Part shown: positions 21,282-52,624 of the stretch, piece after piece | Layout of the letters: the number at the start of each line of letters is the position of its first letter | Numbering within the stretch: the stretch's first letter is position 1 | Origin: Epilithonimonas lactis | GTDB lineage: Bacteria > Bacteroidota > Bacteroidia > Flavobacteriales > Weeksellaceae | NCBI RefSeq assembly: GCF_900110605.1 | Contig: NZ_FOFI01000001.1 | Coordinates: 434,001 to 498,000, forward strand | Reading direction: 5' to 3' | Length of the DNA stretch: 64,000 bases | Translations under genes and position numbers: made by a program | The notes under the pieces: generated by a model | The model's input: only the letters and a program-made list of their open reading frames with translations | Told to the model about the DNA's origin: nothing | Databases searched by the model: none

Positions 21282-21935
21282 ATGATTAGGTCGTTATTTC
21301 CTAACTCTTTTTACAAGCTGAATAAGAATCTATCCAACAAGGGAAGATTTACTCTCGCTGTCCTCTTCAGCGTCTTTTCTGCTTTCACTTCTCCGAATCA
21401 AGTTATGCAGTCTTACAGTCAACAATCAGTGATTGTAGTCGATAGTAATACTGAGACCAGTAATTCTAGCCACAATTTCTGTAAGCAAATTTTCAGTAAA
21501 GATCTTGAGGCTGCAAGGTCATCAATGTCTTATAAACGCATTAGGAAAAATGCCGTATTGAATAGTGTGCAATCGATTGAGCTGGAGGCTGGGGCTGCAC
21601 GAATCAATTTGGATGAAGAAATAGCGAGTCTGGAGAATATTACCAATATCATAATTTCGCAGACATCAAAGGTCAATAATTTTGTTGAGCAAATCTTCAA
21701 ACGATCGCCGGCCACCAACCATTATTTCTTAATTAATTACATCGCTACCAAAGATTGCATCAACAATGCGAATGTCAATTTTAAATTCCAAAAGACAGCC
21801 TACCTCCAAAAGGATTTTGTAGTAAAATGTGCTCTCAATGACCTGCATTGCAAACTGTTTGTTTTCTATAACAGCAGGGCTCAGGATAATTGTTTTTCAA
21901 AGGTTTTTTCTGTAAGACCGCCTCCTGTGGTTTAG
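21282..21935 (+). CDS. RPPP-tail leader protein, copy 1 (unrecognised family)
   Basis: 217 residues. The first gene of cassette 1. A hydrophobic segment (FTLAVLFSVFSAFT, near residues 23-36) fits an uncleaved or unusual signal. VIVVDSNTE follows near residue 50, in the place where the paralogues have VVITVVGDA and AVIYISSGI. The middle shows no recognised domain. The C-terminus is CFSKVFSVRPPPVV, and the FSVRPPP core recurs at the ends of the proteins at 27255 and 52624. The function is not known to me. The N-terminal export signal, divergent middle and fixed RPPP end suggest a translation-arrest monitor or a C-terminal recognition tag. The promoter lies directly upstream, and no promoter is visible before the next gene. 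Confidence 0.75.
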   Translation: MIRSLFPNSFYKLNKNLSNKGRFTLAVLFSVFSAFTSPNQVMQSYSQQSVIVVDSNTETSNSSHNFCKQIFSKDLEAARSSMSYKRIRKNAVLNSVQSIELEAGAARINLDEEIASLENITNIIISQTSKVNNFVEQIFKRSPATNHYFLINYIATKDCINNANVNFKFQKTAYLQKDFVVKCALNDLHCKLFVFYNSRAQDNCFSKVFSVRPPPVV

Positions 21936-21981
21936 TTCTTTTTAATATCCCAAAATTTATCAATCACGTTTTGCATCGGCA

Positions 21982-22004
21982 TTAGCACCATTTGGGTGTT
22001 AATA
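21982..22004 (+). promoter_or_regulatory. Hairpin between leader gene and large gene, cassette 1
   Basis: attagcacc (21982-21990) pairs with ggtgttaat (21996-22004), nine pairs with one G-T and a 5-nt loop. It has no T run, so it is not a simple terminator. It lies 46 bp after the leader stop codon. Confidence 0.5.
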
Positions 22005-22145
22005 GGATTGCTATGTCCTTAACTGAGAAGGATGGATGATCCTCATTTCGATGATCGCCTTTGTCATGATAAAATTTTACTTGGGATTTCAAGCGTTTTT
22101 CACCCTATGATGGAAAACATTTTAAAACTATCAAGAATCTAAATA

Positions 22146-25100
22146 ATGAAATTAAATAAACTTTTTTATTTTGTTGCTTTCCTGTTTTTTCTAAATAGCA
22201 AAGCGCAAAATTGTAATGCACTGTATATTTTGAATGCTCAAAATGGCAATGTTTACGATATTTCGGCACTCAATGGCGTTTTGCCAACTGCTGTGACTAC
22301 GCTGTCTTCATCCGCAAGAAGCAATCTGGCAGTGGGTGCTGATCCAACCAATATTTCTCAAACTGTCTTTACCTCTTCGAACACGGCTGCCAATTCCCCT
22401 GTTTACAAAGACAATGCAAGTATCGCAACCACTATTCCTGTCACTTTAGGTGGTTTGACTGCTAATCCAGTTTCGGGAACGACCTTAGGATATGTATACG
22501 GTGTTTCTGCCAACAAGAGACTTATTCAGGCAAGTCCATCGCCTGCATTTGATCTTGGTTTGATTTCCGGCGATGCTGCCTGGACATCGGGATCTGTTTC
22601 CAGCGATGCTTTTTTCGACTCTGTCGGAAGATTGAATGTTGTGGTAACTTCTGGAGCTTCAAGGTATGTTTATAGAGTAGATATTTCAACACTTTCGGCC
22701 GTCCAGGTCATTCGGTTGAGTGGAAGTTTGCCTACCAACTTTCAGGGATTGTCATTTTTCAATGGAAATATTTACGCCGTCGAAGGATTTGTAACCAATA
22801 TACTTTTAGTGAGTACGTTCAGTGCTAGGGTCTACGAGATCAATCCAAATACGGGAGTGAGTTCGGTAAAGACATCATATAATTTAAACACCCTCTTAGG
22901 TCCATTTACCAATGCAGATGATCTTGATCTGGCTTCATGTCAGTTTTTTACGCCAACCGCAGCGCCAAGTTGTAATGAATTGTTCGGTTTGACAGCATCC
23001 AACGGAACCACGTACAGAATCGATTTGACTACGTTGGCCACTACTTCGGTAGCAACTGGAACGCCAAGTAATACGGGAAATCTTGCCTACGGACCTTCTC
23101 CCAACAATTTGACCCAAAACCAATTTGTGGCTTCTCCGAATGCTGCCTCTGGTAATATTTACCGCGGAGTGGCAACGACTGCAACGACTTCAATGACAAG
23201 TACGGGAAGAACTTGGGGATCACCAATCGGTTTAGGAACCGATCCAGCCACGGGTTATGTGTATGGTATTAATAATAAAACCTTAACAAGATGGCTTGGG
23301 CAGACAGGAAGTGCAAGCGATAATGCAACCACACTAGGCACCATTACAGGTGATACGAATTGGACGAATGGAACCAGCCTGAATGACATTGCTGTAGACA
23401 ATTTTGGTAATCTGTATGTGATAACATCAGTCACAAATAGCAATATATGGTTGTATAGAGTCAATCCGACGACAAGGGTCGCGACGCCGGTAGCGCAGCT
23501 GAACGGGACTGTCCCAAATTTAAGTTCTTCTAATGGGAATGGTTTGGCTTATTTGGGAGAATATTTTTATTACAGTAGGATCAACGGAAACGGAACAAGT
23601 ATTTGGCGTCTGAATGCGATGACCGGACTTTCCGAATCCGTTGGTACTGTCTCTGGAACAAGTGGAAATCCGAGAGATTTTGGAGATCTCGCATCATGCG
23701 CAACGGTGATCAATGTACCGTCAGCTTTCAGTTTTGATTGTGGTGCAAATGGCGGTGGATTGCAAGGGCCAGCTTTAACTGCTAATGGTACAACTCAGAA
23801 TGCTGTTTTACGGGTGCCGATTTCTGGTGCTGTCAATGGTCTTGCAGAATTTACATTGACAGGAGCAGGGATTACCACATCGCCTTCACCGTATGTTGCT
23901 TTTGTTGCTCAGAACGCCACTTTTGTTGATATTCCATTCACCTATGATGGCAGTGGCGCCAACGGAAATCGTATGGTAACGGTATCTTCACCAAGAGCTA
24001 CTTCTGGCAGTACTTGTTCGCTTTCTGTGCTGATGGATGTAGATTCTGATGGCGACGGCATACTGGATTCTCAGGATCTGGATGACGATAATGATGGCAT
24101 CTTGGATACGGTGGAAAATCTTTGCGAAACAGAAGGGACACCTATTTATAATAATACTTTCGGGACAGGAACGGCAACTGCTACCGATGCCAACGTCGTA
24201 GGACATACCTTCGCCGCTGTAAATCCCAATGATGGATCTTATACGGTTTCAAGGTCATTATCTCAAACGATCTACTATACTCAGACCAATCAAAATGGGA
24301 ACAAAGATGCCGGTAATTTTAGCATTACCAATGGTAGCACAGATGGTAGATTTTTGATCATCAATGTGGCTGCAAATTATGCCAATAAGACTTTGTACAG
24401 AGTTAATGGAATATCTGTCACGCAAGGTAAAAAATACAGATTCAGACTTGATATGGCCGGATTGGCTGAAGGTGCCGCTCAAATTCCTAATTTAAGGATC
24501 GCGGTGAAGGACACCTCTGGGAACATACTGGCTTTTACAGATTCGAATAACATCGGGATGGCAAATGATGACATCTGGAGAAGATTTACAATGGATTTTA
24601 TTGCCGGAACTTCTACTGTCAATTTGGAAATCATCAATCTGCAACCACTTGGGAATGCAGGTAATGATGTTGGAATCGATAATTTCGTTTTGGTCCCTTT
24701 GAATATTTGTGATGCGGATGGTGACGGGATTGAAAACGCCTTAGATCTGGACTCTGACAATGACGGATGCTTTGATTCAATAGAAGGTGATGAGAATGTA
24801 AATTCATCTCATCTCAATACAGATGGAAGTATCAATTATGCCGCGAATGGTGGCCTGGGTTCAGCGGTTACGAATAACGGAGTTCCAAATATTGTGAATT
24901 CTGGTGCTTTCGATATCGGAAATGATGTAGGGCAAGGAATAGGCATTTCTCAGGACATTAGTAAAAGTGATTGCCTCGACTCAGACTTTGATGGGATTCC
25001 AAATTATATAGATCTGGACGATGACAATGATGGCATCCTGGACACGACAGAAGGTTGCTCACCAACAGTGACCATGGGATCGATTGGAGATAATGCTAAG

Positions 25101-26393
25101 ATTGCAACTCTAAAAAGTACAGGTTCTGCTGTATTTACATTAGTTCCGCCCGCTGCAACATTGCCTTTGGGTGGTGTAAAGGTGACCTACAACTCAGGTG
25201 GGAATGGCTGGGGATATTTCACACCTGGCGTTGCAACATCCACGATCACAGTCAACGGAACACAATCTGCTCCTTTTCCTACAACATATCTTGATGTCAT
25301 TGCTTATGGAAATACTGTAGCAGGTATTGCAAGAAATGTTACCGTAGATTTTGGAACATCGGCAAATTCTATCAGTACTGCAAATAATGATTATCAATAC
25401 ATTATCGGGATTGCAGGATTAGGAAATGAAGGCGCGATAGTCACCAATACTTTTAGTGTTCCATTGACGGTCCTAGGTAACGCGGATGTTTTCAATACGG
25501 GTGTGTATTCACTTTTGGATGGCGTACCATCTACCACACCAGGTCAAATGGGAACTGTGGTGAGAACAAACAATAATACCACGCAAGGTTACACTTTTTA
25601 CTCCATTCCAAAATCGGTGGCATCATTCACCATGAATCTCACAGGAGGAGATGATCCACACGGTTTTATTTTTGGCGTTTACAACATCAATTGTGATGCA
25701 AATGCTGACGGAGATTCCTTACCAAACTATCTTGATGTGGATAGTGATAACGATGGTTGTCCAGATGCAATTGAAGGCAGTGAAACCATACGCTTCGATC
25801 AAGTTCATTCATTGACATTACCATCTGATGATGCGAATTATCCAAATAGAGGACAGATCAAAGTCATTTATGATGGTTTGACCAAAGGTGCTCCATCTCA
25901 GGTCATCAGTACGTCAGCCTTATCTTATGGTGTTCCTCAATTGGTCAATAACGCCGGAGCAAATCTGAATGCAAGTACCAATGCCTCCAATTTGGCAGGT
26001 TTAGCAGACAATTCGGACGGTACCTCGGAAGTTGGGCAGGGAATAGGTACATCTCAAAATACACTTATCAAAGATATCGAGTGTGACAGATGCTTCCGTC
26101 CTGCTGCATCTCCAGGTGTGGGTGGCGAACCTACCATTCAAGGTTTTACTGCATTAGGAAGAGCAGGAGGTGATGCTGCAGAATGGCCTGGCAAGATCAA
26201 AGGTGCTTATACGGCTTTGGATGCCAGGACCAAAGGTTTTGTGATCAATAGGCTACCGACATCAGCTTTAGGTTCTGTCGTGGGCGTTGTTGGTATGATG
26301 GTCTATGATACCACCGAAAACTGCCTCAAGGTCTATGACGGAACTGCATGGTCCTGTTTCTCAAAACAAACATGTGATAATTTTAATCAATAA
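22146..26393 (+). CDS. Large secreted multidomain protein with TSP3-type repeats, cassette 1
   Basis: 1415 residues. Signal peptide (1-20, ending SKAQ), then two related modules of about 250 residues, starting NCNALYILNAQNGNVYDIS and CNELFGLTASNGTTYRID, with short repeated blocks suggesting propeller-like folds. Four Asp-rich Ca-binding stretches of thrombospondin type 3 kind lie near residues 631-660, 856-885, 946-972 and 1185-1214 (for example [19 protein letters not shown]). A jelly-roll-like module lies between the first two. The last 100 residues (GFTALGRAG, TKGFVINR, GMMVYDTTENCLKVYDGTAW) are shared with the large proteins of the other cassettes. No standard T9SS sorting domain is seen. 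It is probably a surface or matrix adhesin; exact role unknown. Confidence 0.85.
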   Translation: MKLNKLFYFVAFLFFLNSKAQNCNALYILNAQNGNVYDISALNGVLPTAVTTLSSSARSNLAVGADPTNISQTVFTSSNTAANSPVYKDNASIATTIPVTLGGLTANPVSGTTLGYVYGVSANKRLIQASPSPAFDLGLISGDAAWTSGSVSSDAFFDSVGRLNVVVTSGASRYVYRVDISTLSAVQVIRLSGSLPTNFQGLSFFNGNIYAVEGFVTNILLVSTFSARVYEINPNTGVSSVKTSYNLNTLLGPFTNADDLDLASCQFFTPTAAPSCNELFGLTASNGTTYRIDLTTLATTSVATGTPSNTGNLAYGPSPNNLTQNQFVASPNAASGNIYRGVATTATTSMTSTGRTWGSPIGLGTDPATGYVYGINNKTLTRWLGQTGSASDNATTLGTITGDTNWTNGTSLNDIAVDNFGNLYVITSVTNSNIWLYRVNPTTRVATPVAQLNGTVPNLSSSNGNGLAYLGEYFYYSRINGNGTSIWRLNAMTGLSESVGTVSGTSGNPRDFGDLASCATVINVPSAFSFDCGANGGGLQGPALTANGTTQNAVLRVPISGAVNGLAEFTLTGAGITTSPSPYVAFVAQNATFVDIPFTYDGSGANGNRMVTVSSPRATSGSTCSLSVLMDVDSDGDGILDSQDLDDDNDGILDTVENLCETEGTPIYNNTFGTGTATATDANVVGHTFAAVNPNDGSYTVSRSLSQTIYYTQTNQNGNKDAGNFSITNGSTDGRFLIINVAANYANKTLYRVNGISVTQGKKYRFRLDMAGLAEGAAQIPNLRIAVKDTSGNILAFTDSNNIGMANDDIWRRFTMDFIAGTSTVNLEIINLQPLGNAGNDVGIDNFVLVPLNICDADGDGIENALDLDSDNDGCFDSIEGDENVNSSHLNTDGSINYAANGGLGSAVTNNGVPNIVNSGAFDIGNDVGQGIGISQDISKSDCLDSDFDGIPNYIDLDDDNDGILDTTEGCSPTVTMGSIGDNAKIATLKSTGSAVFTLVPPAATLPLGGVKVTYNSGGNGWGYFTPGVATSTITVNGTQSAPFPTTYLDVIAYGNTVAGIARNVTVDFGTSANSISTANNDYQYIIGIAGLGNEGAIVTNTFSVPLTVLGNADVFNTGVYSLLDGVPSTTPGQMGTVVRTNNNTTQGYTFYSIPKSVASFTMNLTGGDDPHGFIFGVYNINCDANADGDSLPNYLDVDSDNDGCPDAIEGSETIRFDQVHSLTLPSDDANYPNRGQIKVIYDGLTKGAPSQVISTSALSYGVPQLVNNAGANLNASTNASNLAGLADNSDGTSEVGQGIGTSQNTLIKDIECDRCFRPAASPGVGGEPTIQGFTALGRAGGDAAEWPGKIKGAYTALDARTKGFVINRLPTSALGSVVGVVGMMVYDTTENCLKVYDGTAWSCFSKQTCDNFNQ

Positions 26394-26403
26394 AACAAAA
26401 CAG

Positions 26404-26970
26404 ATGAAAAGAGCTATAAAAATATTATCAATATTAATATCGGGGATCTTCTTTGGTCAAGTGACTATTGGGAAAACCGTTCCTTCCAATCAATCTGCGA
26501 ACGCAACCGTATCCATTGAGTTTGGTAATGAGACAGGAGGGACAAAAGGAGTGGTTCTACCTTGGGTGACGTCTGCAACAGATGTTACAACGCCAGTTCC
26601 TGGAACTTTGATTTTTGATAGTGCCGATCAGAAGGTGAAGTATGGAACTGCAATTACAGCCAATGCAACCACGATCACAGGTTGGACGGATTTATCCTCC
26701 GGAGCTTATTCGCCAATCGTAGCAAATATTCCCGATAACAATCTAGAGAACACAACTGCGAAAGCCTTGATTGGTGGTGATCCTTCCACAGATGGAACCT
26801 CCGGGATCCTGGTCTTGGGAGATACGGACAAGGCGATGATCTTACCAAGAGTCAATGCCTACACCGATATTGTAAATCCAAGTGCGGGGATGTTGGTCTA
26901 TGTCACAGGAACTACGCCACATCAATTAGCGTTTTTCAATGGCAGAGAATGGTCATTCTGGACGAAATAG
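26404..26970 (+). CDS. Secreted VTIGKT / NGxxWSFW protein, cassette 1
   Basis: 188 residues from the ATG at 26404, 10 bp after the large gene; an open frame reaching back to 26305 would overlap it and adds unlike sequence. Signal peptide MKRAIKILSILISGIFFG, then VTIGKTVPSN. Two related modules follow, one with VPGTLIFDSADQKVKY and one with SAGMLVYVTGTTPHQLAFF ending NGREWSFWTK. The second module resembles the C-terminus of the large protein, so the two may assemble together. It is very close to the protein at 30403. No known enzyme domain. Confidence 0.8.
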   Translation: MKRAIKILSILISGIFFGQVTIGKTVPSNQSANATVSIEFGNETGGTKGVVLPWVTSATDVTTPVPGTLIFDSADQKVKYGTAITANATTITGWTDLSSGAYSPIVANIPDNNLENTTAKALIGGDPSTDGTSGILVLGDTDKAMILPRVNAYTDIVNPSAGMLVYVTGTTPHQLAFFNGREWSFWTK

Positions 26971-27144
26971 CGGATGTCAAATAGACAAAGAATTGTTAGA
27001 TCACATTAAAAAAAACGGTAAATAATACATAAATGTTTCTTTTGGAAGCATAAAAATCGATTTTTTAGAAATGGAACGACCATTTATCAAAAGGCTGATA
27101 AAATACTTAAGTAACTGAAATAAATTAATTTACGTAAATGTAAA

Positions 27145-27175
27145 AACTCCCCAACTCAAGTTCGGGAGTTTTTTT
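27145..27175 (+). terminator. Terminator of cassette 1
   Basis: aactccc/gggagtt stem (27145-27170) followed by a T run. The 26971-27144 stretch before it is AT-rich with nothing recognised. Confidence 0.75.
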
Positions 27176-27242
27176 GTGTTAAGTTTGCGTAATATGAATT
27201 AACAATTGTTAATTTTCAGTAGCGTTTACGGGCTATTTTTAT

Positions 27243-27250
27243 TAAATTTG
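27243..27250 (+). promoter_or_regulatory. -7 element of cassette 2, close to start codon
   Basis: TAaaTTTG at 27243-27250 is a good -7 element, but no TTG lies at the usual distance. It ends only 4 bp before the ATG at 27255, so the mRNA would be leaderless or the true start is further in. Confidence 0.55.
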
Positions 27251-27254
27251 CGCC

Positions 27255-27914
27255 ATGAATAAAGACTTCTTGTCTTTTAATGCACAGAATGGTATTGGGA
27301 CTAATTTGCTATATAGGTTTCAACTATTCTTCGTATTTTTTTCTGTCTGTTTCCTAAATGCTATTTCCGCTCAAGATGTCCAGTCGCAAGACCTTGCGAA
27401 ATCTGACGTTGTTATCACAGTGGTTGGTGACGCTTTCATCTACTCTAAAGATGAGTCTTTTAATGCGCAGGTCTCGCACAATAAAGATCTGAAACAAAAT
27501 TCCAAGGTCGAGCTAAGTGAGGATAACGTCTTAAAAATTAGAGGTAAAGCCTTGCCAAAGGCAGATAAAGTTGCTAATTCTACCAGGAAAAAACCTGAAA
27601 ACGTTGTTGTCGCTTCGAGCAAAAGTAAACGATGCAAGTCCAAGGAGTTTTCTAAAAAATATGTCGCTGAACAGATAAAAGGTCTGGATGATGATGGTCA
27701 GTTCATGGTCAATTCCAGGTCTGGAGCTCAATCCTTTATTTCGCCAGGTACCGATTCTCCTTCATTTGCAAATTCTGCTGTCTTTCTAGAGCGACTCGTG
27801 AGTGATTCTTTGATGTATTCCTACTACGTCAATCACTTTTATAAGAACAGCAATGCGAAAACACGGATTTTCAGCAATGACTTTTCTGTAAGGCCACCGC
27901 CAGCTTTGATTTAA
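27255..27914 (+). CDS. RPPP-tail leader protein, copy 2 (unrecognised family)
   Basis: 219 residues from ATG 27255. A clear signal peptide (LLYRFQLFFVFFSVCFLNAISAQ, cleavage near residue 40) sits after an extra N-terminal stretch of about 17 residues. VVITVVGDAFIYSKDESF follows near residue 52. The middle is Lys/Ser-rich and unrecognised. The C-terminus is IFSNDFSVRPPPALI. Length and layout match copies 1 and 3 although the middle does not. Because the -7 element ends just before this ATG, an in-frame TTG at the L of NLLYRF is another possible start and would begin the signal peptide directly. Confidence 0.75.
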   Translation: MNKDFLSFNAQNGIGTNLLYRFQLFFVFFSVCFLNAISAQDVQSQDLAKSDVVITVVGDAFIYSKDESFNAQVSHNKDLKQNSKVELSEDNVLKIRGKALPKADKVANSTRKKPENVVVASSKSKRCKSKEFSKKYVAEQIKGLDDDGQFMVNSRSGAQSFISPGTDSPSFANSAVFLERLVSDSLMYSYYVNHFYKNSNAKTRIFSNDFSVRPPPALI

Positions 27915-27939
27915 TTTTCCACTTTTCGACTCAGTACTT

Positions 27940-27963
27940 ACTATGAATTTTTCAGTTCATAGT
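27940..27963 (+). promoter_or_regulatory. Hairpin between leader gene and large gene, cassette 2
   Basis: actatgaa (27940-27947) pairs perfectly with ttcatagt (27956-27963) around an 8-nt loop, in the 79-bp gap before the next start. ccac (27919-27922) could compete by pairing with gtgg (27962-27965). Confidence 0.5.
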
Positions 27964-27993
27964 GGTCAATTATTTTATCAATAATAATTTTCT

Positions 27994-30390
27994 ATGAAAA
28001 AATTAAATCTATTTTATATAACAGTATTCCTGCTTATAGGAACGGGAATGCTGTATTCTCAAGCGGCTGCCGACAGACTTTATCTAACTTTAGCAAATAC
28101 GGGAAGAATCTATGATATTACAGCATTGTCTACTACACCAGCTACAGCAATAAATTTACCTAACGCGGTAACTACTCCTGGTGTGCCAGGAGGGACAAAT
28201 GCCAATGCCAGTAACCTGGCTGTTGGTTATGACCAGCCTGGTGGTAATCCAAGTAATATAGTTTTTATCCAGTCCAACATATCGGGAGGTTCCACACTGT
28301 ACAAAAATGGAACTGCCATCTCTGGGACTACGACACCTGCAGGTATAGAGATTGGGGGAATAGCGACGAATAATGTTCCCGGTCCTTTTTTTGGTAATGT
28401 ATATGGTTTCCAAAGGAATACAAAAGTATTGTATCCTATCTATCCGGCAGGTACAGCAACAACAATAACTGGTGATACAATATGGACAGAAGGGGCAACA
28501 TTAGGAACAGATACTTTTTTTGACTATCAGAATAATATTTACATGTTTGTCAATTATCCTGCAACTAATCCTACTTCAAGGTATTTGTATAAGATCTCTA
28601 TTGGTGGTTCGACTGCCCAACAGGTTGTTCAAATTGCAGGAACAGCGGCCAGTGTTTCCAGTATACAAGGGATGGCGTATCTCCAAGGCTCTGTTTACAT
28701 TGCGACAGTTCTTGCATCTACTATTGAAGTACGTAGAATCAATATTTTTAATGGTAGCTCTTCCCTTGTAGCTACTTACAATGGTGGTGCAGGTCAAAAT
28801 CTGGATTTGGCAACGGTTCCTTATTATGTCCCTTTTCAGTTTACTTGTTCGGGGATCACACAAACTTCCACTACATCATTTGTAAAAGGTGTAGCTAGTA
28901 ATAGTCAGAAATTTATTAATATCCCAATTAACAATGTGTATGCAGATGGTGCTTATACGATCAATATAATTGGAACAGATTTCAATAGTTCTTCTAATGT
29001 CAATATTACAAGCTCCACCACATCGATTCAAGTTCCATTGAATTATACTGGAGGTGGAAATGCTGGTACGAGAACTCTTCAAGTCAATTTGAATGGTAGT
29101 ACAACTGCTTGTCCGATAAACGTCATTGTAGAGGAGGATACAGACGGCGATGGAATAGGCAATTCTCAAGATCTTGATTCTGATAATGATGGCATCTTGG
29201 ATATTTTTGAATGTGCAGATACTGTCGTGAATAGAGACTTCAGCACTACAGATGGAACTGTCACAACTTTTGATGCGCCGGCTGCGGACCTGGGTTTTAT
29301 ATTTGATGTCTATCGACTCGATAATTCTTTTAATCTTAATATAAATGGTGTCAATATTTCAACAAGCACCTTGGAGTTTCAACCCGATCAAACTGATAAC
29401 GTTAGATTCTTAGATGGTTCCAAATATGGAGACGGCACTGTACCGCAGATCTACAGTATGACAGGTAATGCTGATAATCCTTTGGTAAGGATCATCATTC
29501 ACAAAAATGGTTCAATTGCCATGTACGGAAGTAAATCTGGTGGTAGTGCCCTTTTTCCGCTCCAGCTTTATAATGGGAATGCTTTTAATAATATTATATG
29601 GAATCAGACAGGCACGAACACGGTAAGATTGTCACAACCAGTTGTAGGAACAACTTACATTAGCGGTAAAGGACAAGGTTTTAAATTTGGTTTCTGTGAT
29701 CCGGACAATGATGGGATTTCCAATCAATATGATGTCGATAGCGATGGTGACGGTTGCCCAGATGCTATAGAAGGTAGCGAGGCAGTACGTTTTGATCAGG
29801 TTCATTCCATGACTTTACCTACTACTGATACGAACTACCGTTATCGCGGTCAGATCAAAGTTGCCTACAATGGCACTACTACTGGCACGCCGGCTCAGAT
29901 CGTAAGTAATTCTGCTTCGGCCTTTGGAGTCCCTCAATTGGTCAACAATGCAGGAAATAATCTCAATACAGCGACCAATCCTTCGAATCTTGCAGGTTTG
30001 GTTGATAATACGGATGGCACATCGGATGTTGGACAGGGAATAGGTACTGCGCTAAATGCAAGTGCAAGAGATGTGGAATGCGACCGTTGTTTCCGTCCTG
30101 CAACAACGCCTGGTGTTGGTGGTTTGTCTACAAGCCAAGGTTTTACATCGCTTCAAAGAGCTGGAGGCGGCGCTGCCGAATGGCCAGGTAAGATCAAAGG
30201 TGCCTACACGGCATTGGATGCCAAGACCAAAGGTTTCGTGATCAATAGAGTGCCGACCACTTCACTCTCTTCGATCATAGGTGTTGCAGGAATGATCGTT
30301 TATGATACGACCGAAAACTGCCTCAAAGTTTATGATGGGACAGCGTGGTCTTGTTTCTCCAAACAGACTTGTGATAATTTTAACCAATAA
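27994..30390 (+). CDS. Large secreted protein with TSP3-type repeats, cassette 2
   Basis: 798 residues. Signal peptide (1-23, ending MLYSQ), one propeller-like module (about 24-280, RLYLTLANTGRIYDITAL) related to the two modules of the cassette 1 protein, an Ig-like stretch, and two Asp-rich Ca-binding stretches near residues 381-409 ([17 protein letters not shown]) and 568-595. The C-terminal 230 residues, from EGSEAVRFDQVHSMTLP to CDNFNQ, are close to the cassette 1 protein. It looks like a shortened paralogue. Role unknown, presumably surface-exposed or released. Confidence 0.85.
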   Translation: MKKLNLFYITVFLLIGTGMLYSQAAADRLYLTLANTGRIYDITALSTTPATAINLPNAVTTPGVPGGTNANASNLAVGYDQPGGNPSNIVFIQSNISGGSTLYKNGTAISGTTTPAGIEIGGIATNNVPGPFFGNVYGFQRNTKVLYPIYPAGTATTITGDTIWTEGATLGTDTFFDYQNNIYMFVNYPATNPTSRYLYKISIGGSTAQQVVQIAGTAASVSSIQGMAYLQGSVYIATVLASTIEVRRINIFNGSSSLVATYNGGAGQNLDLATVPYYVPFQFTCSGITQTSTTSFVKGVASNSQKFINIPINNVYADGAYTINIIGTDFNSSSNVNITSSTTSIQVPLNYTGGGNAGTRTLQVNLNGSTTACPINVIVEEDTDGDGIGNSQDLDSDNDGILDIFECADTVVNRDFSTTDGTVTTFDAPAADLGFIFDVYRLDNSFNLNINGVNISTSTLEFQPDQTDNVRFLDGSKYGDGTVPQIYSMTGNADNPLVRIIIHKNGSIAMYGSKSGGSALFPLQLYNGNAFNNIIWNQTGTNTVRLSQPVVGTTYISGKGQGFKFGFCDPDNDGISNQYDVDSDGDGCPDAIEGSEAVRFDQVHSMTLPTTDTNYRYRGQIKVAYNGTTTGTPAQIVSNSASAFGVPQLVNNAGNNLNTATNPSNLAGLVDNTDGTSDVGQGIGTALNASARDVECDRCFRPATTPGVGGLSTSQGFTSLQRAGGGAAEWPGKIKGAYTALDAKTKGFVINRVPTTSLSSIIGVAGMIVYDTTENCLKVYDGTAWSCFSKQTCDNFNQ

Positions 30391-30402
30391 AAAAGAGTCA
30401 GA

Positions 30403-30969
30403 ATGAAAACATATATCAAAACATTAGCAATATTAATGTCAAGTATGGCCTTTGGTCAAGTGACGATTGGTAAGACCACGCCGTCCAATGTACCTGCAAA
30501 CGCGACGGTGTCTTTAGAATTCGGTGACGCAACTGGTGGATTGAAAGGGATTGTTTTACCTTGGGTCAATGCTGCAGCAAGTGTTACAACGCCAGTTCCG
30601 GGAACGTTGATCTTCGACAGTGCCGATCAGAAGGTGAAGTACGGAAGAGCGGTGACTGCCAATGCAAGTGAGGTTACGAGCTGGACAGATCTTTCCTCTG
30701 GAGCTTATTCGCCAAGCGTCGCCAATGTTCCAGATACCAACGCGGAGAATACGAATGCAAAAGCCTTGATCGGAGGCAATCCAACGACAGATGCAACTTC
30801 TGGGATTTTGGTTTTGGGAGATACGAATAAAGCAATGATTCTCCCAAGGGTGAATTCCCATAAAGATATTGTGAATCCAAGTGCAGGAATGATGGTCTAC
30901 ATCACAGGTACCACGCCCAAGCAACTTGCTTTTTTCAATGGCAGGGAATGGTCTTTCTGGACCAGGTAG
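30403..30969 (+). CDS. Secreted VTIGKT / NGxxWSFW protein, cassette 2
   Basis: 188 residues, the same length as the cassette 1 protein and similar throughout (VTIGKTTPSN, KGIVLPWVNA, VPGTLIFDSADQKVKY, NGREWSFWTR). Signal peptide at residues 1-18. It starts 12 bp after the large gene. The near-duplicate pair shows that the whole cassette was copied. Confidence 0.8.
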   Translation: MKTYIKTLAILMSSMAFGQVTIGKTTPSNVPANATVSLEFGDATGGLKGIVLPWVNAAASVTTPVPGTLIFDSADQKVKYGRAVTANASEVTSWTDLSSGAYSPSVANVPDTNAENTNAKALIGGNPTTDATSGILVLGDTNKAMILPRVNSHKDIVNPSAGMMVYITGTTPKQLAFFNGREWSFWTR

Positions 30970-30998
30970 TCTTAAGGTCTTCATTATTAGATATTTTT

Positions 30999-31029
30999 AA
31001 ACCACTTTCGAAAGGAAGTGGTTTTTTAT
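30999..31029 (+). terminator. Terminator of cassette 2
   Basis: aaaccacttt and aagtggttt form a strong stem around cgaaagg, followed by six T. Confidence 0.8.
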
Positions 31030-31045
31030 TTTGAATAATAATTTG

Positions 31046-31053
31046 TATATTTG
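31046..31053 (+). promoter_or_regulatory. Probable rpoB -7 element
   Basis: TAtaTTTG at 31046-31053. Transcription would start near 31060, right at the first arm of the inverted repeat described next, and leave a leader of about 300 nt before rpoB. No well-spaced TTG is seen. Confidence 0.55.
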
Positions 31054-31060
31054 CACCATC

Positions 31061-31265: not shown

Positions 31266-31361
31266 CACTTTTTCCTTTTGCCTTTTATCTTGTTTCTTAA
31301 GTTTTTCCTGATATTTTTTGTGAATCAAAATATTTTTTAACCCATTTTTTCTTATAATTTT

Positions 31362-44892: not shown

Positions 44893-45525
44893 CTAAGGTT
44901 TCCAAAAACTCCACACTGTACCGTTGTACACAGCAAGTTGTCTACTTGCAGTATCGTAAACCATCATTCCTGGTGCAGGATTCAGGACGTTCAGATGCGG
45001 GCTTGCCACTTTTGGTAAGACCATCGCCTTGTCGGTATCCGTCAATACAAGAATTCCTGCAGTGGTATCTGTAGCACCATTGGCTCCAATTGCTGCTTTG
45101 GCACTCTCCTGTTCTCTTGCATTGTCCTGAAGTGAGGAATCAATGGTATTGAACTGTGTAAAGACGACATTATTATTGTTGGCATCCTGTACAGTTAGAG
45201 GAAAAGTAGGACTACCTGTGAGGTCAAACCAGTTGCCTGCCTTTCTGTATTTCATCTTTTTATCCGAAAGGTCGAAGATGATCGTTCCGTCGACCACTGT
45301 TCCCTGCATACCACGGTAACCTGCGCCAGTGGTCGCATTGTAAGCAACTGGATTTCCCGCAACAGTAGAGACCCATGGCATTACAATTCCTTTTTTGTTG
45401 TCAGCATTGTCATAGAATTCCAGAGAAACATTAGAGCCTGCAGTGGTTGAGCTTTTGCCTATGGCTACCTGGGAAAACATGGGAATAGCCGACAAGATGG
45501 CAAATGTTATGATTGATTTTTTCAT
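44893..45525 (-). CDS. Secreted VAIGKS / NGxxWSFW protein, cassette 3
   Basis: 210 residues. Signal peptide (1-19, ending PMFSQ), then VAIGKSSTTAGSNVSLEFYD, the counterpart of VTIGKT in cassettes 1 and 2. KKGIVMPWVS, DGTIIFDLSDKKMKY and the C-terminal PGMMVYDTASRQLAVYNGT ending WSFWKP show the same two-module plan. It is more diverged than the other two copies. It lies 110 bp after the large gene, and that gap holds a 9-bp inverted repeat. Confidence 0.8.
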   Translation of the reverse strand: MKKSIITFAILSAIPMFSQVAIGKSSTTAGSNVSLEFYDNADNKKGIVMPWVSTVAGNPVAYNATTGAGYRGMQGTVVDGTIIFDLSDKKMKYRKAGNWFDLTGSPTFPLTVQDANNNNVVFTQFNTIDSSLQDNAREQESAKAAIGANGATDTTAGILVLTDTDKAMVLPKVASPHLNVLNPAPGMMVYDTASRQLAVYNGTVWSFWKP

Positions 45526-45617: not shown

Positions 45618-45635
45618 CATGAGAAAGTTAAATGA

Positions 45636-48600
45636 TTAGTTAAAGGTATCCGGACAAGTTTGAGTTGTCAAACAATGCCACGCTGCTGTGGTTTCACCTT
45701 CTTTGACGGTGTAGACCTTTAAGCAAGCGGCTTCCTGGTCATATACCATCATTCCTTCAACAGGATTGGTAATGGAACTCAAACTGGCAGTGGTAGCAAC
45801 CCTGTTCACTACAAATCCTTTTTCTTTGGATTCCAGCGCCGTCCATGCACCAGAACGAACCATAGGCCAGTTGCTGTTGTTTTCACCAGCTCTCGCCAAA
45901 GCAGTGATCCCGTGCTTCGTTTCCAATGGGGTACCTGTGGCTGCAGGTTTGTAGCAGAATGGAGGAATAAGACAAACCGCGTCCTGAATAAGCGCATCTA
46001 TAGAGGTTCCTATTCCTTGCCCCAAGTCACCACCAAGATCAGCAGCTCCACCAGAGTTTACAACAGTCGGAACGCCGTTGGTATCTCGGCAACCTGTACC
46101 TGCACAAAGATTTTTATTAAGTGCTGCAGAACCTGATCCTACAGATAGCCCCGGAGCCGCATCTACAAGCATCGAGGTCGTTACGTTTTCATCTCCTTCC
46201 AAGGCATCCAGACATCCGTCATTGTCAGAATCCAGATCCAGATAATCCGGGATGCCATCGCCGTCGGTATCTTTCAAACTGTTGGCAGAAGTAGCACCTG
46301 TAGCTAAATTTACCCCTCCTATCGACAGAGGTGTCGCGTCTGAAACATCAGTTCCCACTCCATACCAATCTGTAATAAACGGCACATCGCCTGTTGTAGA
46401 ACTTACTCTAGAAATAGCACCTGGTACGATGCCATTTGAATTTGTAATTGTGGTATATGAATAGGAAGGATCTTGACTGAATGGTGTCCACCAGGTTCTA
46501 GGATTACCATTGTAAAGTATTTTACTTGTGTCAGATGTCCGTACAAAGATGGTTAAAAAATTATATTTTTGCATCGATGGAGGAATAGTAAGTAGTGCAG
46601 GTCCTAATGTTGCCTTGGTGATATCCAAAACTGTTGTTACAGACGGGTCTCCATCACCACTATCACCATTGTCATATGCTCGACTATATGGAACAACCCT
46701 TGTAAATTGAACAGCTTTATTTGTTTCGACAATTTCGGCTGTATCAAAATTCTGGATATAGTTATAGGTGTCACCCTCATTTAATGATGACATCACAATG
46801 CCGTTAACTTTTACAACAGTATTATTTTGCGTGGCCGTGATCATCATTTTGGTTTTATGAGATGAACTTTTTGTTAAAAATCTGGTTCCCAAAAGCCGGT
46901 CTGGTAAAAGATATTCCAAGGTATTATCACATGAGCTTCCGGGACTGTTAGCACATTTCAGAGCTACCATTACACCAATATTTTGAGTAGATGTGATTGT
47001 ATAACCATTGATGTCCACTGATGGTCCTAGATCAAAAACATAGTTTTGTCCATCATTCAAAGTGAATGAAGCAACGGTTGCACCCGCCTTATTTTTCACG
47101 GTCACTGCATTATTATTAACAGCACTGAAAATTGTAAGTCCGGTTTCATTATATTCACTTGAAGTGTAAAAGTGCGTGTTAACAGTGTATTTTGTTCCCC
47201 ATGTTGATTTTGGGTAAACTACAGCTATTTCCTGTATATTTACAACGTCTCCAAAAATTTCCTGTAAAACAGAGACAGGAGCAGAGGATGTTATGGATAC
47301 ATATTTTCCGCTTGTCACCTGATTTAGAGGCCAGTCGGGTATCTGCGAACTATTTAAATTAATGGATAAAATTCCCGATGCAGGTATGGTTGCTGTGGTA
47401 GCAGAACCATTGTATGGGGTGTAAGTTACTATTGTACCGGTGACTCCTGTTACATATACTATCCATTTTGATGTCCATATGAAATGAACTGCATTATACA
47501 ATCTAAAAGCAGAATCTTTAAGAGAGATAGGACCTTCCAAACTATCTAAAATCCCATCATTGTCATCATCCAGATCGCAGTCATCTGCAATACCATCGCC
47601 ATCACTATCCGGATTGGAAGGAGAAATAACGCAAGGGCATGGCGGCAAAATCTTCACCATCACTGACGATGTTGAATTATCCGTATTCCAACAGTTGTTG
47701 ACAGTGTCATAGAAGAATGCGTAGTAAGTTCCTGAAACTGTAACATTACTTGGATCTGCGACTTTCGTCCCCGCTGCTCTTGTAGGCGTGGTCCACCATT
47801 CGATCACCGTACTTGGCGCATTTGGATGAGTTCCGGTGTAAAGGGAATTTAAGTTGACAGAATTGTTTCCGGAATTGGTACAACTAGGTGTAACTGTGAT
47901 TGTAACCACATTGGACGTTGAAGTACAGCTACCTAAAGTGGTAACAGCTCTATAATATCTTGTCGCAGTCAATACTCCTGGTGAATAGCTTGCCGCATTG
48001 GCTCCGGATATATTGGTAAAAGTAACATTGTCCGTAGATACCTGCCACTGAATGGTACCATTTGAACCCGTTAAATTCAATGCAGAAGGTGCAGTGCCAG
48101 AAGTAATGGTTTGACTTGAACCTGCTGTTCCAGCATTACAGACTTCGACAATACTCGAAGAACAAAATCCCAGTAGGGAGCCATTTTGCCCGCCAGCTCC
48201 ATTAATGGTTAAGGTGGTAAAGTTAGAAGGCGCACTTATTCTAAAACGTCCACCGCCGTCACCGCCTGTTGTTGATGCTCCAGATAGAATCTCGTTTCCA
48301 TTGATGGTTGAAAGACAATTAGCGGGTGAATCGGAATAGATCGAAACTGTGCCACCGTTAGAATTAAAAATAAAATTCTCATTGTAAGTGTGTCCAGCAG
48401 CACCCAAGAGTAACACTACATTGTTTACAGGTTTATTAAAATTTAAGGTAAGCGACCATGGAGAAAATTGACCTATCCATAGCGAATTAGCACTCAGCTG
48501 ATCTGATGAACAAGTATTAAAAGGACCATTAGGATAAGTCTTGACATCACCAGTATAAGAAGAAGTAATTGTCACGCCATTTACAGTAAATGTTCCACTT

Positions 48601-50288
48601 GGTGGTATATTAGCTGTTCCTGAGCACGAGAGGACAGGGCATGAATTAATGGTCACCGTCACTGCATTGGACACTGGGCTGTAACAGTTGGCAACGGTCG
48701 TACTTTTATAAAATGCATAATACGTTCCCGCTCCGGCATTGGCCAATTGCGTTGCAGTGAGTTGAGTTCCTGTGGAAGGATTATTGGTGGTAAACCAAAC
48801 CAGATCAGTTCCTGTAGGTGTTGTTCCAGTGTGTGCGGTATTAAGATTAGCGGTTGTGGAAGGACAAACATTGCTGATATTTTGAACAGATGGTGCGGTG
48901 GTTCCGGCGTTGCATACGGCAGTGGCAACAATTCCAAAGCGATATGTAGAATCATTATTGATATCTGCAGAACCCAAAGTCAATGTGAATTCTCCATCTG
49001 GCGTACCATCGCTGGTACCGCCAACAGTGCTTTCTCCAACCGTTGTCCAGCCGGGTGGCAGTTCTTTTGCTGGTGCAGGTTGCCCTACGATTCCCTGATT
49101 TTTGCTCAATTGAAATTTCACAACATTACCTGCAATTAAATTTCCTCCCGGATCAAAAGTGAAAATACCTGATGCATCTACCGCTGCAGTAGCGAGTACA
49201 TTGCCTGTACTAGAAATCGCATTAACATAAAGCGTGTTGGCTGTATTCCAAGTTCCTCCGCCTGTTCCTCCGCCGTCTATGGTAGCGCTTCCATCATTAT
49301 CTCTGTAGACGGTACCACTAGGCTTAATTTCAGATAGCGAAACGCCTAAACTAATCCGCTCCGCTTGCCAAAAGGGACTGGAAGAACCCGCCGGCCCACT
49401 CCAATTGGTGTAAGTTGGAGCTCCTGATGTGTAAGTCTGTGGGTTGGAAGACCCTCTCAGATAAGTCTTCAATTTAATGACTGTAATATTGTTACCATTA
49501 AACCGTACAGATCCATTGGTACTCGGGGCAGGGTCTGCTGAATTGCTATGCAAGATTTGATTAGTAGTGGTATTTAAAGAGAAATTAGTCGTCCCACTGA
49601 GCCTTGTCATCGTCATTGTATTTGGAAAAGAACCGGTTAAATCCAAATCAAATTCACTTGAATAAGAGGATCGATAATTTGTCGTTTTAGTCGCACCCAT
49701 ATCTGCAAGGTGTATAACCGGATTATTGACCGGACGGCTAAAAGTGATGGTAATATCTCCCATATAATACCTGCCCGTAAATGCGCTTTGACTGGTATAT
49801 AGAGGATATGAATAAATAGAAATTCCTACAGCCCTGTTTACAGCAACCTCTATTCCTGTACCTGCCGTTGCAGTAGCTGTATTTGTAAAATTTCCATTCG
49901 CAACAGTGCCAATCGTATTCATTAAAGGAAAGATAGCAGTACCAGGTGGCGCGGTTGTACTTGCATCATTGCTACCGCCAAATAACATTGGTGGGTACGT
50001 GGGGTTACCTTCACCTATGTTTGGATATTGGTTCCTTAACGATATAGTTGCTGTTAAAGTTGGTGTATAGGTTGCAAAAACACTTCCTGATGTATTTTCC
50101 TGTAGCGTGATAACGGTACTTGATGTAGCACCCGTAGCTACGGTTACCGGACCATTCCCAGTTGGATTACCGGCACCAGCAGCCATTTCCAGATTTCGTC
50201 TTTGCGCCGAAAGTTCCAACGTTCCAAACAATAGCAACAATGCAAATCCAAAAATATGATTTGTGATGTTTTTTGTATATTTTTTCAT
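45636..50288 (-). CDS. Giant secreted protein with IgGFc-binding-like domain and TSP3 repeats, cassette 3
   Basis: 1550 residues. Signal peptide (1-29, ending ELSAQ). The N-terminal 300 residues look beta-rich. An SpaA-like stalk domain begins near residue 322 ([20 protein letters not shown]). A module at about 554-720 ([19 protein letters not shown]) is nearly the same as the adjacent 216-residue protein. Ig-like stretches follow. Asp-rich TSP3 stretches near 889-915 and 1338-1365 flank a region (920-1325; [24 protein letters not shown]) that resembles the IgGFc-binding domain of FCGBP-like proteins. The C-terminus ([26 protein letters not shown]) matches the other cassettes. Probably an adhesin. 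Confidence 0.85.
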
Positions 50289-50302
50289 TGAATTAGTTTT
50301 AA

Positions 50303-50953
50303 TTAGTTGAATAAAGTACTACCGTTCAAAGGAACTTGGGTGGTTCCCGCGTTGCACACGGCAACGATGCTTGACGAACAAAATCCCAACACAGAACCGT
50401 TTTGTCCTCCAGCTCCATTAATGGTGAGAGAAGTGAAACTGGAAGGTGCACTAATTCTAAAACGACCACCACCAGCGTTAGGTGATCCGTTTCCGTTTCC
50501 GGAAAGAATTTCATTTCCATTGATTGTGGAAAAACAACTGCTTGGAGAGTCAGAATAAATCGAGACCGCTCCACCATTGGAATTGAAAATAAAATTTTCA
50601 TTGGCAGTGTTACCAGTACCACCCAAGAGCAGAACTAAGTTGTTTACGGGCTTATTAAAATTTAAGGTAAGCGACCATGGCAAATTTTGTCCTATCCACA
50701 ATGAATTATTATTAATTACATCTGATGAACAAGTGGTATATGCACCCAAAGTATAAGTTTTTACATCACCAGTATAGGAAGACGTTATTGTTACGCCATT
50801 TACAGTAAATGTTCCACTTGGAGGTATATTGGCAGTTCCTGAGCAGGAGAGGGCTTGCGCAAATGCAAGATTACTCACCACAAGAAGTAAAAACGTCATC
50901 ATCCAAAGACGGGTTCGCCTCAAGATAGATGGTTTATTTATATATTTTTTCAT
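50303..50953 (-). CDS. Secreted single-module paralogue of the giant protein
   Basis: 216 residues. Signal peptide with a long charged N-region (ending SNLAFAQ, near residue 33). The mature part is one copy of the module found at 554-720 in the downstream giant protein: [58 protein letters not shown]. It stops shortly after VCNAG, where the giant protein goes on. The two genes are 14 bp apart. It looks like an internal duplication that gained its own signal peptide, or a broken remnant. Confidence 0.8.
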
Positions 50954-51037: not shown

Positions 51038-51373
51038 ATGGCTGAGGTCATTTTTCTCATCATTGCCGTTCATCGTTCCAATTTTGAGGTTCTAAACCCC
51101 ATTTTTGACGTTCCAAGGTCCATCGTTGGGGTTCTGAACCTCATCGTTGGGGTTCGCAACCCCATCATTGACCCCAGACAACGTCATCTTTGAGGTTCAT
51201 GACGTCATTTTTGGGGTTCAGAACGTCATCTTTGGGGTTCTAGACGTCACTTATGGGGTTCTAGACGTCATTCTTGGGGTTTGGAACGTCATCTTTGGGG
51301 TTCGGAACGTCATTTATGGGGTTCGGAACGTCATTTTTGACCCTCGGAACCCCAAAAATGGAGCTTGCAACGT
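51038..51373. repeat. 21-bp tandem repeat array with GTTCnGAAC palindromes
   Basis: From 51100 the sequence is a run of 14 units, 13 of 21 bp and one of 22 bp (51163-51184), consensus CATCTTTGGGGTTCnGAACGT; the last two, to 51373, are degraded. Weaker copies extend left to about 51038. Most units contain GTTCnGAAC or a near match, so the palindromes recur every 21 bp, two turns of B-DNA. It lies between the 163-residue gene and the 216-residue gene of cassette 3. A plus-strand frame (51147-51494) reads a heptad VIFGVRN, but it is only a product of the 21-bp period. Confidence 0.85.
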
Positions 51374-51406
51374 CATGCCTGTGGCCAAGGGCCGCATCCC
51401 AGCGAT

Positions 51407-51898
51407 CTATTGCTGGATTTCTGGATCTTGTGGCGGTTGCGAAGTGCCTGCACGGTTGAAGAATTGTCTCATTTCATTCACCTTGGTCTCGTAGCCTGGT
51501 GCATTGGTAGTGGCTTTGTACTTCGCATAGTCATAATCGGTCAGGGCAGCCTGATAATTGTCCCAATCATGAAGGATCTTGGCATTGCGCAAGCCATCAT
51601 AAAGACTTTGCAACCTTTGGATAACCCCTTCTATGAGCGATCGGCTGTTGAAATCTTTGGCAAACTCTTCCCAGTCCACATCTGTACTGCTGAGATTGGG
51701 TTGGCTGTCCTGGTAATCTTTTGCTTTGTTGACCAATAATTTGTTTTCCTCGTTAATGCTGCCGTACTGGGTGCGTTCCTCCGGACTCAGATTGGCCAAT
51801 TTCGGCGATAGAGCTGTTTCCAGATTTCGCAGTGCAGCATTGATGGTTTCCTGTTCTGCCGCAGTAAAGTGGCGGCTTTCAAAATTTGTAAAAGGCAT
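51407..51898 (-). CDS. Unrecognised 163-residue cytoplasmic-type protein, cassette 3
   Basis: No known domain recognised and no signal peptide. It looks helical and charged: EQETINAALRNLETALSPKL, YGSINEENKLLVNKAKDYQD, DVDWEEFAKDF, QRLQSLYDGLRNAKILHDWD. The C-terminus is Pro/Gln-rich (TSQPPQDPEIQQ). Cassettes 1 and 2 have no counterpart. It begins 93 bp after the RPPP leader gene, and its end lies 33 bp from the 21-bp repeat array. The sequence looks like a genuine conserved protein rather than noise, since its Asn/Tyr/Trp content is ordinary. Confidence 0.7.
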   Translation of the reverse strand: MPFTNFESRHFTAAEQETINAALRNLETALSPKLANLSPEERTQYGSINEENKLLVNKAKDYQDSQPNLSSTDVDWEEFAKDFNSRSLIEGVIQRLQSLYDGLRNAKILHDWDNYQAALTDYDYAKYKATTNAPGYETKVNEMRQFFNRAGTSQPPQDPEIQQ

Positions 51899-51991
51899 AT
51901 GTATTTGTTTTTAGGTGATCATGGTTTTTGAATACATTCTGTTTCCCCTGCTAAAAGAACCAGAGGACAATGTTTTCAGAAAAAAAGGATG

Positions 51992-52624
51992 TTACAAGAA
52001 TGCCGGAGGTGGCCTTACAGAATAAGAATCTGAATCAATCTTCCCACAGAAGTGGACAAGGGCAGTAGGCGTTTTTGCCTGAGTTGCATCTGGAGCAACG
52101 ATTTGAAAATAGGAAAAGCCCGATCTGATAAAATGCTTCAGAGCTGGATTTTGTGTTTGAGCAACTGCAATGTTGTGATGCTGATGCAACGAGAAAGCAG
52201 CGTCCGATTCTGATCCCGTTGTAATGGTTTCGTCTGCTTGCGGATGGGGCGGTGCTATTTTTGATTTTGGATGTACGGTCTGTAGTACCACCTTCTTCTT
52301 ACTTTCACTTTTCTGAGAATTGGAGGCGATGGATCGTTTGGGATCTGAGACTGCCACGACCTCATATTGTGTCTCTGTTTCCAGATCAGCAATGGAAATG
52401 CCAGAAGAAATGTAGATGACGGCCTGAGATTTTGAAACATCAGATAAAGAAGTAGAATCTTTGGAAACCGTTTTTTCTATTTCAGCATCCAGCGGATTTG
52501 GTTCCGCCGTGTTTGCAAAACTGTTTTGAGCGCTTAGCAAAAACAATAAAATGAAAAGTACTTTACTGCCAAATGACAATAAAGTACTGATTCCTTTTTC
52601 ATGGTTTGTGTTTTTACCTCGCAT
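51992..52624 (-). CDS. RPPP-tail leader protein, copy 3 (unrecognised family)
   Basis: 210 residues. Signal peptide (VLFILLFLLSAQNSFA, cleavage near residue 38), then AVIYISSGISIADLETE near residue 68, the counterpart of VIVVDSNTE and VVITVVGDA in copies 1 and 2. The middle is low in complexity, Ser/Lys/His-rich, and not conserved. The C-terminus is KIDSDSYSVRPPPAFL. It is the first gene of cassette 3. On the minus strand TTccTTTG with a TTG 20 bp upstream gives a weak promoter 34 bp before the start. Confidence 0.75.
   Translation of the reverse strand: MRGKNTNHEKGISTLLSFGSKVLFILLFLLSAQNSFANTAEPNPLDAEIEKTVSKDSTSLSDVSKSQAVIYISSGISIADLETETQYEVVAVSDPKRSIASNSQKSESKKKVVLQTVHPKSKIAPPHPQADETITTGSESDAAFSLHQHHNIAVAQTQNPALKHFIRSGFSYFQIVAPDATQAKTPTALVHFCGKIDSDSYSVRPPPAFL

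Follow-up and report, generated by a model that had tools for sequence, protein, structure and literature searches.

A stretch of 64,000 nucleotides (nt) from Epilithonimonas lactis, a member of the Chryseobacterium group of Weeksellaceae, raises the question of why three small proteins with an export-type N-terminus end in almost the same residues, SVRPPP. We refer to the whole stretch (contig NZ_FOFI01000001.1, positions 434,001 to 498,000 of the forward strand) as the window. The three open reading frames (ORFs) start at 21282, 27255 and, on the minus strand, 52624. Their lengths of 217, 219 and 210 amino acids (aa) and their C-termini FSVRPPPVV, FSVRPPPALI and YSVRPPPAFL are exactly those given in a first-pass annotation of this DNA, which had read the proteins as candidate arrest peptides. 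Leader 1 (21282..21935, plus strand; ORF translation and family profile match) has an N-terminal hydrophobic segment and carries its Arg-Pro-Pro-Pro codons at 21915..21926, two codons short of the stop. Leader 2 (27255..27914, plus strand) is composed of a signal segment, an IYSKDESFN module, a Lys-rich linker and the conserved end, with the Arg-Pro-Pro-Pro codons at 27891..27902, three codons short of the stop. In leader 3 (51992..52624, minus strand), these codons lie at 52004..52015, likewise three codons short of the stop. We consider it probable that these ORFs are RxPP-type regulatory arrest peptides, which would act in cis as the leaders of surface-fibre operons. RxPP arrest leaders as such are already known; what appears to be new here is a leader family dominated by RPPP and located before surface-protein genes.

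We investigated how specific the motif is for such ORF ends. A six-frame translation of the window contains RPPP five times; three are the leader ends, and the other two occur in short frames, 26–27 codons from a stop. Across all 4.09 Mb of the genome, a degenerate DNA pattern for SVRPPP matches six times, and its reversed control does not match at all. Each of the six matches belongs to an ORF of about 200 aa (197–232 aa, depending on the start codon) and lies 2–3 codons short of its stop; together with the empty control, this rules out a chance origin of the motif in this genome. A profile search brought the genome total to nine such leaders, and the added ones end in AVRPPPFSPSMTS, FVRPPPVLV and SGRAPPFFS. 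Across 23 genomes of the genus, a loose pattern gave 27 matches in 16 genomes, and the control pattern gave 20. Because the control is nearly as frequent, the evidence from the genus lies in the position at the ORF end rather than in match counts: ORF-end motifs make up 26 of the 27, and the 27th is the RVRPPP leader of locus L228. A tighter pattern including the stop codon was found in 27 of 246 genomes of the family and 4 of 33 genera (control pattern in 11 genomes). The matches in G081, G092 and G101, all of one genus, turned out to be an identical site 67 codons from the stop and not an ORF-end motif; 24 genomes in three genera remain after this unrelated site is discarded. The fixed pattern TTTTCTGT..AG.CC.CC.CC..TAA, run over 84,980 species genomes, matched 22 stretches. 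Such ORFs account for 20 of them, and their records bear the names Chryseobacterium, Epilithonimonas, Kaistella and, in one case, Flavobacteriaceae bacterium. The two others are taken for chance: one, a frame of 98 residues from a Celeribacter metagenome-assembled genome (MAG), lacks the motif at its end, and the other, of 90 residues from a Clostridia MAG, ends in FSVRPPPSS.

We then collected the family by three routes. The window and 40 loci yielded 50 leader ORFs (49 distinct), with no ORF obtained at L066 (start codon) or at L094 and L095 (unrelated site). A search blind to the motif used a profile of 42 leaders minus their last ~12 residues; it matched 88 of the 246 family genomes at E <= 1e-3, the weakest matches appearing to be fortuitous. 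We hand-picked 40 new matches in E-value order down to ~2e-5, one of which (L150) gave no ORF. The motif is present in 34 of the 39 ORFs of this blind set (28 RPPP, 4 RAPP, 1 RGPP and 1 KPPP). The third route started from the downstream genes, at 40 loci found by their C-terminal domain (see below), with a regular expression in which x was free; most of these loci were chosen for the lack of a known leader and are thus a biased sample. Ten further leaders were found in nine loci (nine RPPP and one RAPP), and a short ORF ending in RPPP was noted at L224. The family now totals 93 distinct leaders, 49 of them selected by the motif itself: 86 RPPP, 5 RAPP, 1 RGPP and 1 KPPP. Arg is kept in 92 of the 93, and the distance from motif to stop is 1–7 codons, being three codons in 47 leaders. 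The S and V of SVRPPP are common but replaceable (66 and 70 of 93, respectively). The "almost invariant SVRPPP" of the first-pass annotation therefore describes the window trio; judged by the family sequences, the real constraint is RxPP, with S and V varying and the first Pro replaceable by Ala or Gly. Synonymous codons are freely mixed at the R, P, P and P positions, indicating that selection acts on the peptide and ruling out conservation of the motif at the DNA level. The leaders have diverged strongly (13–45% identity to leader 2) with the motif kept. In a profile search of 296 genomes of the order, no leader relative outside the family was found at E 1e-5; the 13 genomes matched are all Weeksellaceae.

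How does this motif compare with experimentally studied arrest sequences? R-(A/G/P)-P-P is the published arrest core of ApdA/ApdP/CruR-type peptides, and RPPP stalls the ribosomes of E. coli and B. subtilis (PMC12992588, PMC4176338, PMC8129111). ApdP with RPPP retains strong, nearly wild-type arrest in B. subtilis (2.4 vs 1.9 units) and partial arrest in E. coli; Arg is irreplaceable for arrest, whereas G and A are competent at x, and P, S and D partly so; in ApdA, the change from A to G is permissive and that from A to P partial (PMC12992588). Of the XPPP motifs in the NlpD context, RPPP stalled most strongly (PMC4176338), and its pausing in wild-type E. coli was comparable to that at a stop codon (PMC8129111). 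The RAPP arrest of ApdA and ApdP is refractory to elongation factor P (EF-P) (PMC12992588). The string "RPPP" is absent from the main text of PMC12992588, whose tables may list individual RAPP members. A literature search over the main text of published papers gave no match for SVRPPP and no description of arrest leaders controlling surface-protein genes. On the sequence level, the natural variation of the family (P, A or G at x, Arg in 92 of 93) is inside the published arrest-competent set. The arrest-peptide reading of the first-pass annotation is thus well supported by comparison, through x = P/A/G, the 1–7 codons to the stop, the export-type segment and the leader position.

We next turned to the protein encoded by the leaders. 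AlphaFold2, applied to the 42 aligned leaders, predicts a signal helix at 12–37, a compact module at ~60–97 (predicted local distance difference test score, pLDDT, ~82–88), a low-confidence linker at ~100–168, a helix at 169–205 and a free tail, with a mean pLDDT of 66 and a predicted template modelling score of 0.29. Conservation is highest in the motif, followed by the post-signal module (IYSxDExFN in much of the family) and then by the last ~40 residues, which the ribosomal tunnel would hold; it is lowest in the Lys-rich linker. The earlier statement that the proteins share little in the middle no longer holds in an alignment of homologues, where the module and the last ~40 residues are conserved above the linker. 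A hydrophobic N-terminal segment is present in 80 of 83 leaders, as defined by a 12-residue hydrophobicity peak >= 1.8. None of the three window leaders matches a Pfam or NCBIfam family above the cut-off; among the 42 members compared with Pfam, any model was matched by at most one member, weakly; and a fold search gave no PDB relative (best E 0.51). A conserved, folded middle domain with an enzymatic role, named in the first-pass annotation as the observation that would speak against arrest, was not found. With no curated family or fold match and only a ~40-residue module next to a low-confidence linker, a folded enzyme is ruled out.

A same-strand ORF follows 75 of 83 leaders at a gap of 26–402 nt, which is 53–97 nt in 52 of the 75 after refinement of the start codons; for the other eight, no complete downstream ORF lies within the retrieved stretch. 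The first downstream ORF starts with a hydrophobic segment in 72 of 75 cases. The sequence TAnnTTTG, which we take to be the consensus of the Bacteroidota -7 promoter box, occurs in the 150-nt stretch at the start of 53 of the 83 leaders (shuffled, 11.4 +/- 3.0, range 4–20) and in none of the 75 intervals between leader and next gene (shuffled, 6.4 +/- 2.2, range 1–13). The full TTG-spacer-TAnnTTTG pattern is also absent from all 75 intervals. For comparison, the box occurs at 5 of 17 domain genes without a leader (shuffled, 2.4 +/- 1.4). A box at the leader start and none in the gap are most simply explained by one transcript, and the leader is likely the first gene of a transcription unit with the surface gene. 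In the window, a box of this type, TATTTTTG, is found immediately upstream of leader 1 (21255..21262, plus strand; read from the sequence), and another, TAAATTTG (27243..27250, plus strand), ends 4 nt before the ATG of leader 2, suggesting a leaderless mRNA.

We also asked whether the end of the leader is coupled to the next gene through the RNA. The leader end, the interval and the downstream start were folded at 28 °C for 52 loci with an interval of <=100 nt. Without a ribosome, the downstream start region (-18 to +3) is 43% unpaired. A ribosome mask placed 14 to 4 codons upstream of RxPP changes this fraction by -0.006 to +0.013 (all p > 0.2). From two codons before RxPP, the start region opens by +0.066, and then by +0.098 at the site (p 2.6e-5, with p values of this coupling inflated by related sequences), and the opening persists as the masked ribosome moves beyond RxPP. 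The equivalent mask in 41 control gene pairs has no significant effect (0.557 to 0.575, p 0.26; family vs control, p 0.005). The start is masked more strongly by its cognate leader end than by ends swapped in from other loci (unpaired, 0.454 vs 0.506; 33 of 52 loci, p 0.006), and the effect is nearly lost with shuffled intervals (0.442 to 0.453, compared with 0.454 to 0.560 for the real ones). The best hairpin begins 22–29 nt past the stop in 30 of 52 intervals and in 5 of 22 controls. Between leader 2 and its surface gene, this interval contains a hairpin with a 10-bp stem (27940..27963, plus strand; whole interval z -3.68 vs shuffles). MAFFT and RNAalifold gave no consensus structure of the intervals because their registers differ, and no conserved helix stood out in the realigned intervals.

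The sequence family with its specific motif, its position, the layout of the units, the shared domain of the downstream proteins and the computed RNA coupling form the ground for a mechanism in which arrest itself, its release through export and the direction of regulation are inferred. Transcription would start just upstream of the leader, and the N-terminal signal would target the leader to the export machinery. As in ApdA, ApdP and CruR, the ribosome would stop at RxPP when the P site holds the third residue (Pro) and the A site the fourth (Pro). The stopped ribosome would cover the last leader codons, which otherwise tend to pair with the next start region, and the start region would be exposed. 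Pulling or capture of the nascent leader outside the cytoplasm would relieve the arrest, after which the ribosome would finish the last 1–7 codons and leave. The expression of each large, probably trimeric, surface protein could in this way be tied to the export state of its leader. The folding results are compatible with arrest meaning more downstream translation, and equally compatible with opening by a terminating ribosome.

Several observations weigh against this interpretation. Five of the 39 blind-set ORFs lack the motif (L159, L162, L163, L166 and L167), L163 and L166 being short (112 and 117 aa). Three leader-like ORFs before domain genes, at L229, L232 and L296, carry GTSPP, RPPN and RPPT instead, their ends reading GTSPPFSLG, SIRPPNSLII and STRPPTLFQFLK; these are possibly arrest variants or decayed motifs. 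Other ORFs separate leader 3 from its surface gene, and the shared C-terminal domain is not in 22 of the 75 first downstream ORFs, although for some of them it is found one or two genes further on (for example, leader 3 and L058). The same C-terminal domain also occurs in many leaderless genes. The full promoter pattern is present at just 24 of 83 leader starts (3 in one shuffle), and both the promoter and the RNA statistics use related sequences and heuristic start codons, making their p values optimistic. The interval hairpin is not clearly stronger than in controls (mean z -2.8 vs -2.4, p 0.077; 22 controls). A terminating ribosome opens the start region equally well (0.563), and folding therefore does not decide the sign of the regulation. 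Most RAPP-like sequences of the E. coli and B. subtilis proteomes that were tested, drawn from a set searched for RPPP too, arrested inefficiently (PMC10987492); the motif alone thus proves nothing, and context matters. EF-P could also relieve RPPP. Finally, a benefit of the SecM type is unclear, as the downstream genes encode cargo.

This last point touches on the logic of the system. Arrest peptides were first discovered as monitors of the export machinery itself. The first-pass annotation had placed the leaders before genes for large secreted proteins, which is usually the case, but the feedback logic of SecM cannot simply be copied because these genes encode surface proteins and not export machinery. 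A brake that raises cargo when export fails would be odd; mRNA tethering or assembly sensing would make more sense. The paused ribosome might tether the polycistronic mRNA to the export site via the half-exported leader, with the next start held open, such that the fibre protein would be made at a prepared translocon and the exported module would act as a release sensor (for example, for changed fibre assembly or export capacity). We put this version forward tentatively, as it seems rather unlikely in this precise form.

Alternatively, RxPP might be a C-terminal tag acting at the protein level, the ~200-aa protein being a secreted partner or chaperone of the surface protein whose tail serves as the recognition site for a factor in the periplasm or outer membrane. 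The conservation at the amino-acid level, the fixed C-terminal position and the operon neighbourhood would all be explained, and a conserved post-signal module exists. However, a tag offers no reason for variation at x confined to the arrest-competent P, A and G or for the coupling of the leader end to the start region of the next gene, and it sits poorly with the low-confidence linker and the strong divergence of the leaders (13–45% identity to leader 2); we regard it as improbable. Another assumption is that RPPP is a mere slow, EF-P-dependent polyproline pause, which would time translation or folding or report EF-P or proline status without any sensing of export. RPPP is indeed a strong staller in assays without EF-P (PMC4176338), and it outnumbers RAPP in the family (86 of 93 leaders are RPPP). 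On the other hand, the RAPP and RGPP members have only two prolines, published RAPP arrest is EF-P-refractory (PMC12992588), and the hydrophobic N-terminal segment of 80 of 83 leaders would be left unexplained, making a plain pause a distinctly improbable account. Copies found in clusters, near-identical paralogues or orthologues and the presence of several cassettes in a genome might suggest that a mobile, duplicating surface-protein cassette left the leaders behind as remnants, with a C-terminus kept by recent common descent alone. This is extremely unlikely, because a motif kept at 13–45% identity to leader 2 and with scrambled synonymous codons indicates purifying selection and not recent descent.

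We then investigated the genes that the putative arrest leaders precede. They usually encode large secreted proteins with very diverse N-terminal parts, and 53 of the 75 first downstream ORFs have in common a C-terminal domain of ~65 residues with the consensus ALESKTKGFVINR...GMMVYDTTxxCLKIYxGTxWxCFxTQTCP. Seven window proteins and 25 aligned domains gave no curated family for it, just weak Mtd_N/DUF2793 matches, and this domain is apparently undescribed so far. C-terminal sorting-domain models for type IX secretion exist in Pfam or NCBIfam, and none of them is among the Pfam/NCBIfam matches of the seven window proteins or the 25 domains. The predicted fold has a weak likeness to phage tail and collagen trimerisation domains (E 0.24 at best), suggesting that the downstream proteins may be trimeric surface fibres. 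The host genome has 12 large genes with this domain; nine follow an RxPP leader, with one or two other genes intervening in two of the nine pairs, and three (at L220, L222 and L223) have no leader. A companion of ~190 aa with a degenerate copy of the domain comes after 9 of the 12 large genes, including the three of the window. The domain is more widespread than the leader, being present in 43 of the order's 296 searched genomes, of which four lie outside the family; no leader was found at the domain loci of the two out-of-family genomes examined (G248, four loci; G453, one locus). At L226, L297, L301 and L304, leaderless domain genes are preceded by a gene whose C-terminus presumably resembles those of helix-turn-helix regulators, which suggests that these domain genes are under different control. 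Three closely similar domain genes with companions are arranged in tandem at L291 (G050 C49).

In the window, leader 1 is followed by a large secreted protein of 1415 aa (22146..26393, plus strand), with the shared domain at 26181-26390, and by a small secreted companion with a degenerate domain copy (26404..26970, plus strand; the mechanical ORF starts at 26305). Leader 2 is followed by a large secreted protein of 798 aa with the shared domain (27994..30390, plus strand) and a secreted companion with a degenerate domain (30403..30969, plus strand). These two cassettes of leader and surface gene occupy ~10.5 kb between rplL and rpoB (window 20399-31362). In other genera (L233 and L235), the slot after rplL (recognised by sequence) is likewise occupied by a gene carrying the shared C-terminal domain. 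Downstream of leader 3, all on the minus strand, are a 163-aa ORF without a hydrophobic N-terminus (51407..51898), which is missing from the paralogous locus on contig C9 (L060), a secreted 216-aa protein (50303..50953) that resembles, by eye, the N-terminus of the gene downstream of the C9 paralogue, a large secreted protein of 1550 aa with the shared C-terminal domain (45636..50288; E 2.2e-29) and a companion with a degenerate domain (44893..45525). Tandem 21-nt repeats (ACGTCAT...GGGGTTC) are located at 51084-51350, between leader 3 and its secreted genes, and a repeat-like ORF (NPKDDVL) occupies the equivalent position in the C8 locus L221.

If the proposed function is true, the repeated use of such leaders before exported cargo within one genome would make nascent-chain arrest a modular regulator of surface display. 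Bacteroidota would also gain a natural set of RPPP, RAPP and RGPP variants with which to ask how arrest strength and EF-P dependence are tuned, and the family draws attention to a C-terminal domain, apparently not described before, that many large surface proteins carry.

The leaders can be compared with several known systems. Like SecM, VemP and MifM, they combine an export signal with a putative C-terminal arrest site; unlike in those systems, the downstream gene encodes exported cargo and not a Sec or YidC component, and outside the short core the sequences showed no relation. In SecM, the leader end pairs with the start region of the next gene and the pairing is opened by the stalled ribosome, and the computed coupling reported here has the same form. 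The NAP-stop and NSP-stop upstream ORFs of Bacteroidota are likewise candidate arrest peptides with a C-terminal proline, but they are located upstream of secDF or secA and end in NAP or NSP at the stop; compared by description in the available text, no RxPP is named for them (PMC10987492). Bordetella CruR is an RxPP leader of an operon outside the Sec pathway, as proposed for the leaders here, and its arrest is proposed to be relieved by a ligand; it differs in responding to copper and in controlling a TonB-dependent receptor (PMC12992588). The closest likeness is to the RAPP/RGPP arrest peptides, namely ApdA, ApdP, ApcA, CruR and the SLIV proteins of Streptomyces lividans (PMC12992588, PMC10987492, PMC10951233). 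Both groups are small proteins with an N-terminal localisation signal, a variable sequence, a near-C-terminal R-x-P-P and a same-strand gene downstream, and five RAPP leaders and one RGPP leader of our family have exactly the known core. The published RAPP/RGPP leaders precede diverse genes (PMC12992588). The putative arrest leaders described here mostly have Pro at x, belong to one Bacteroidota family as far as the profile searches reach, and occur in several copies per genome, mostly preceding surface-protein genes.

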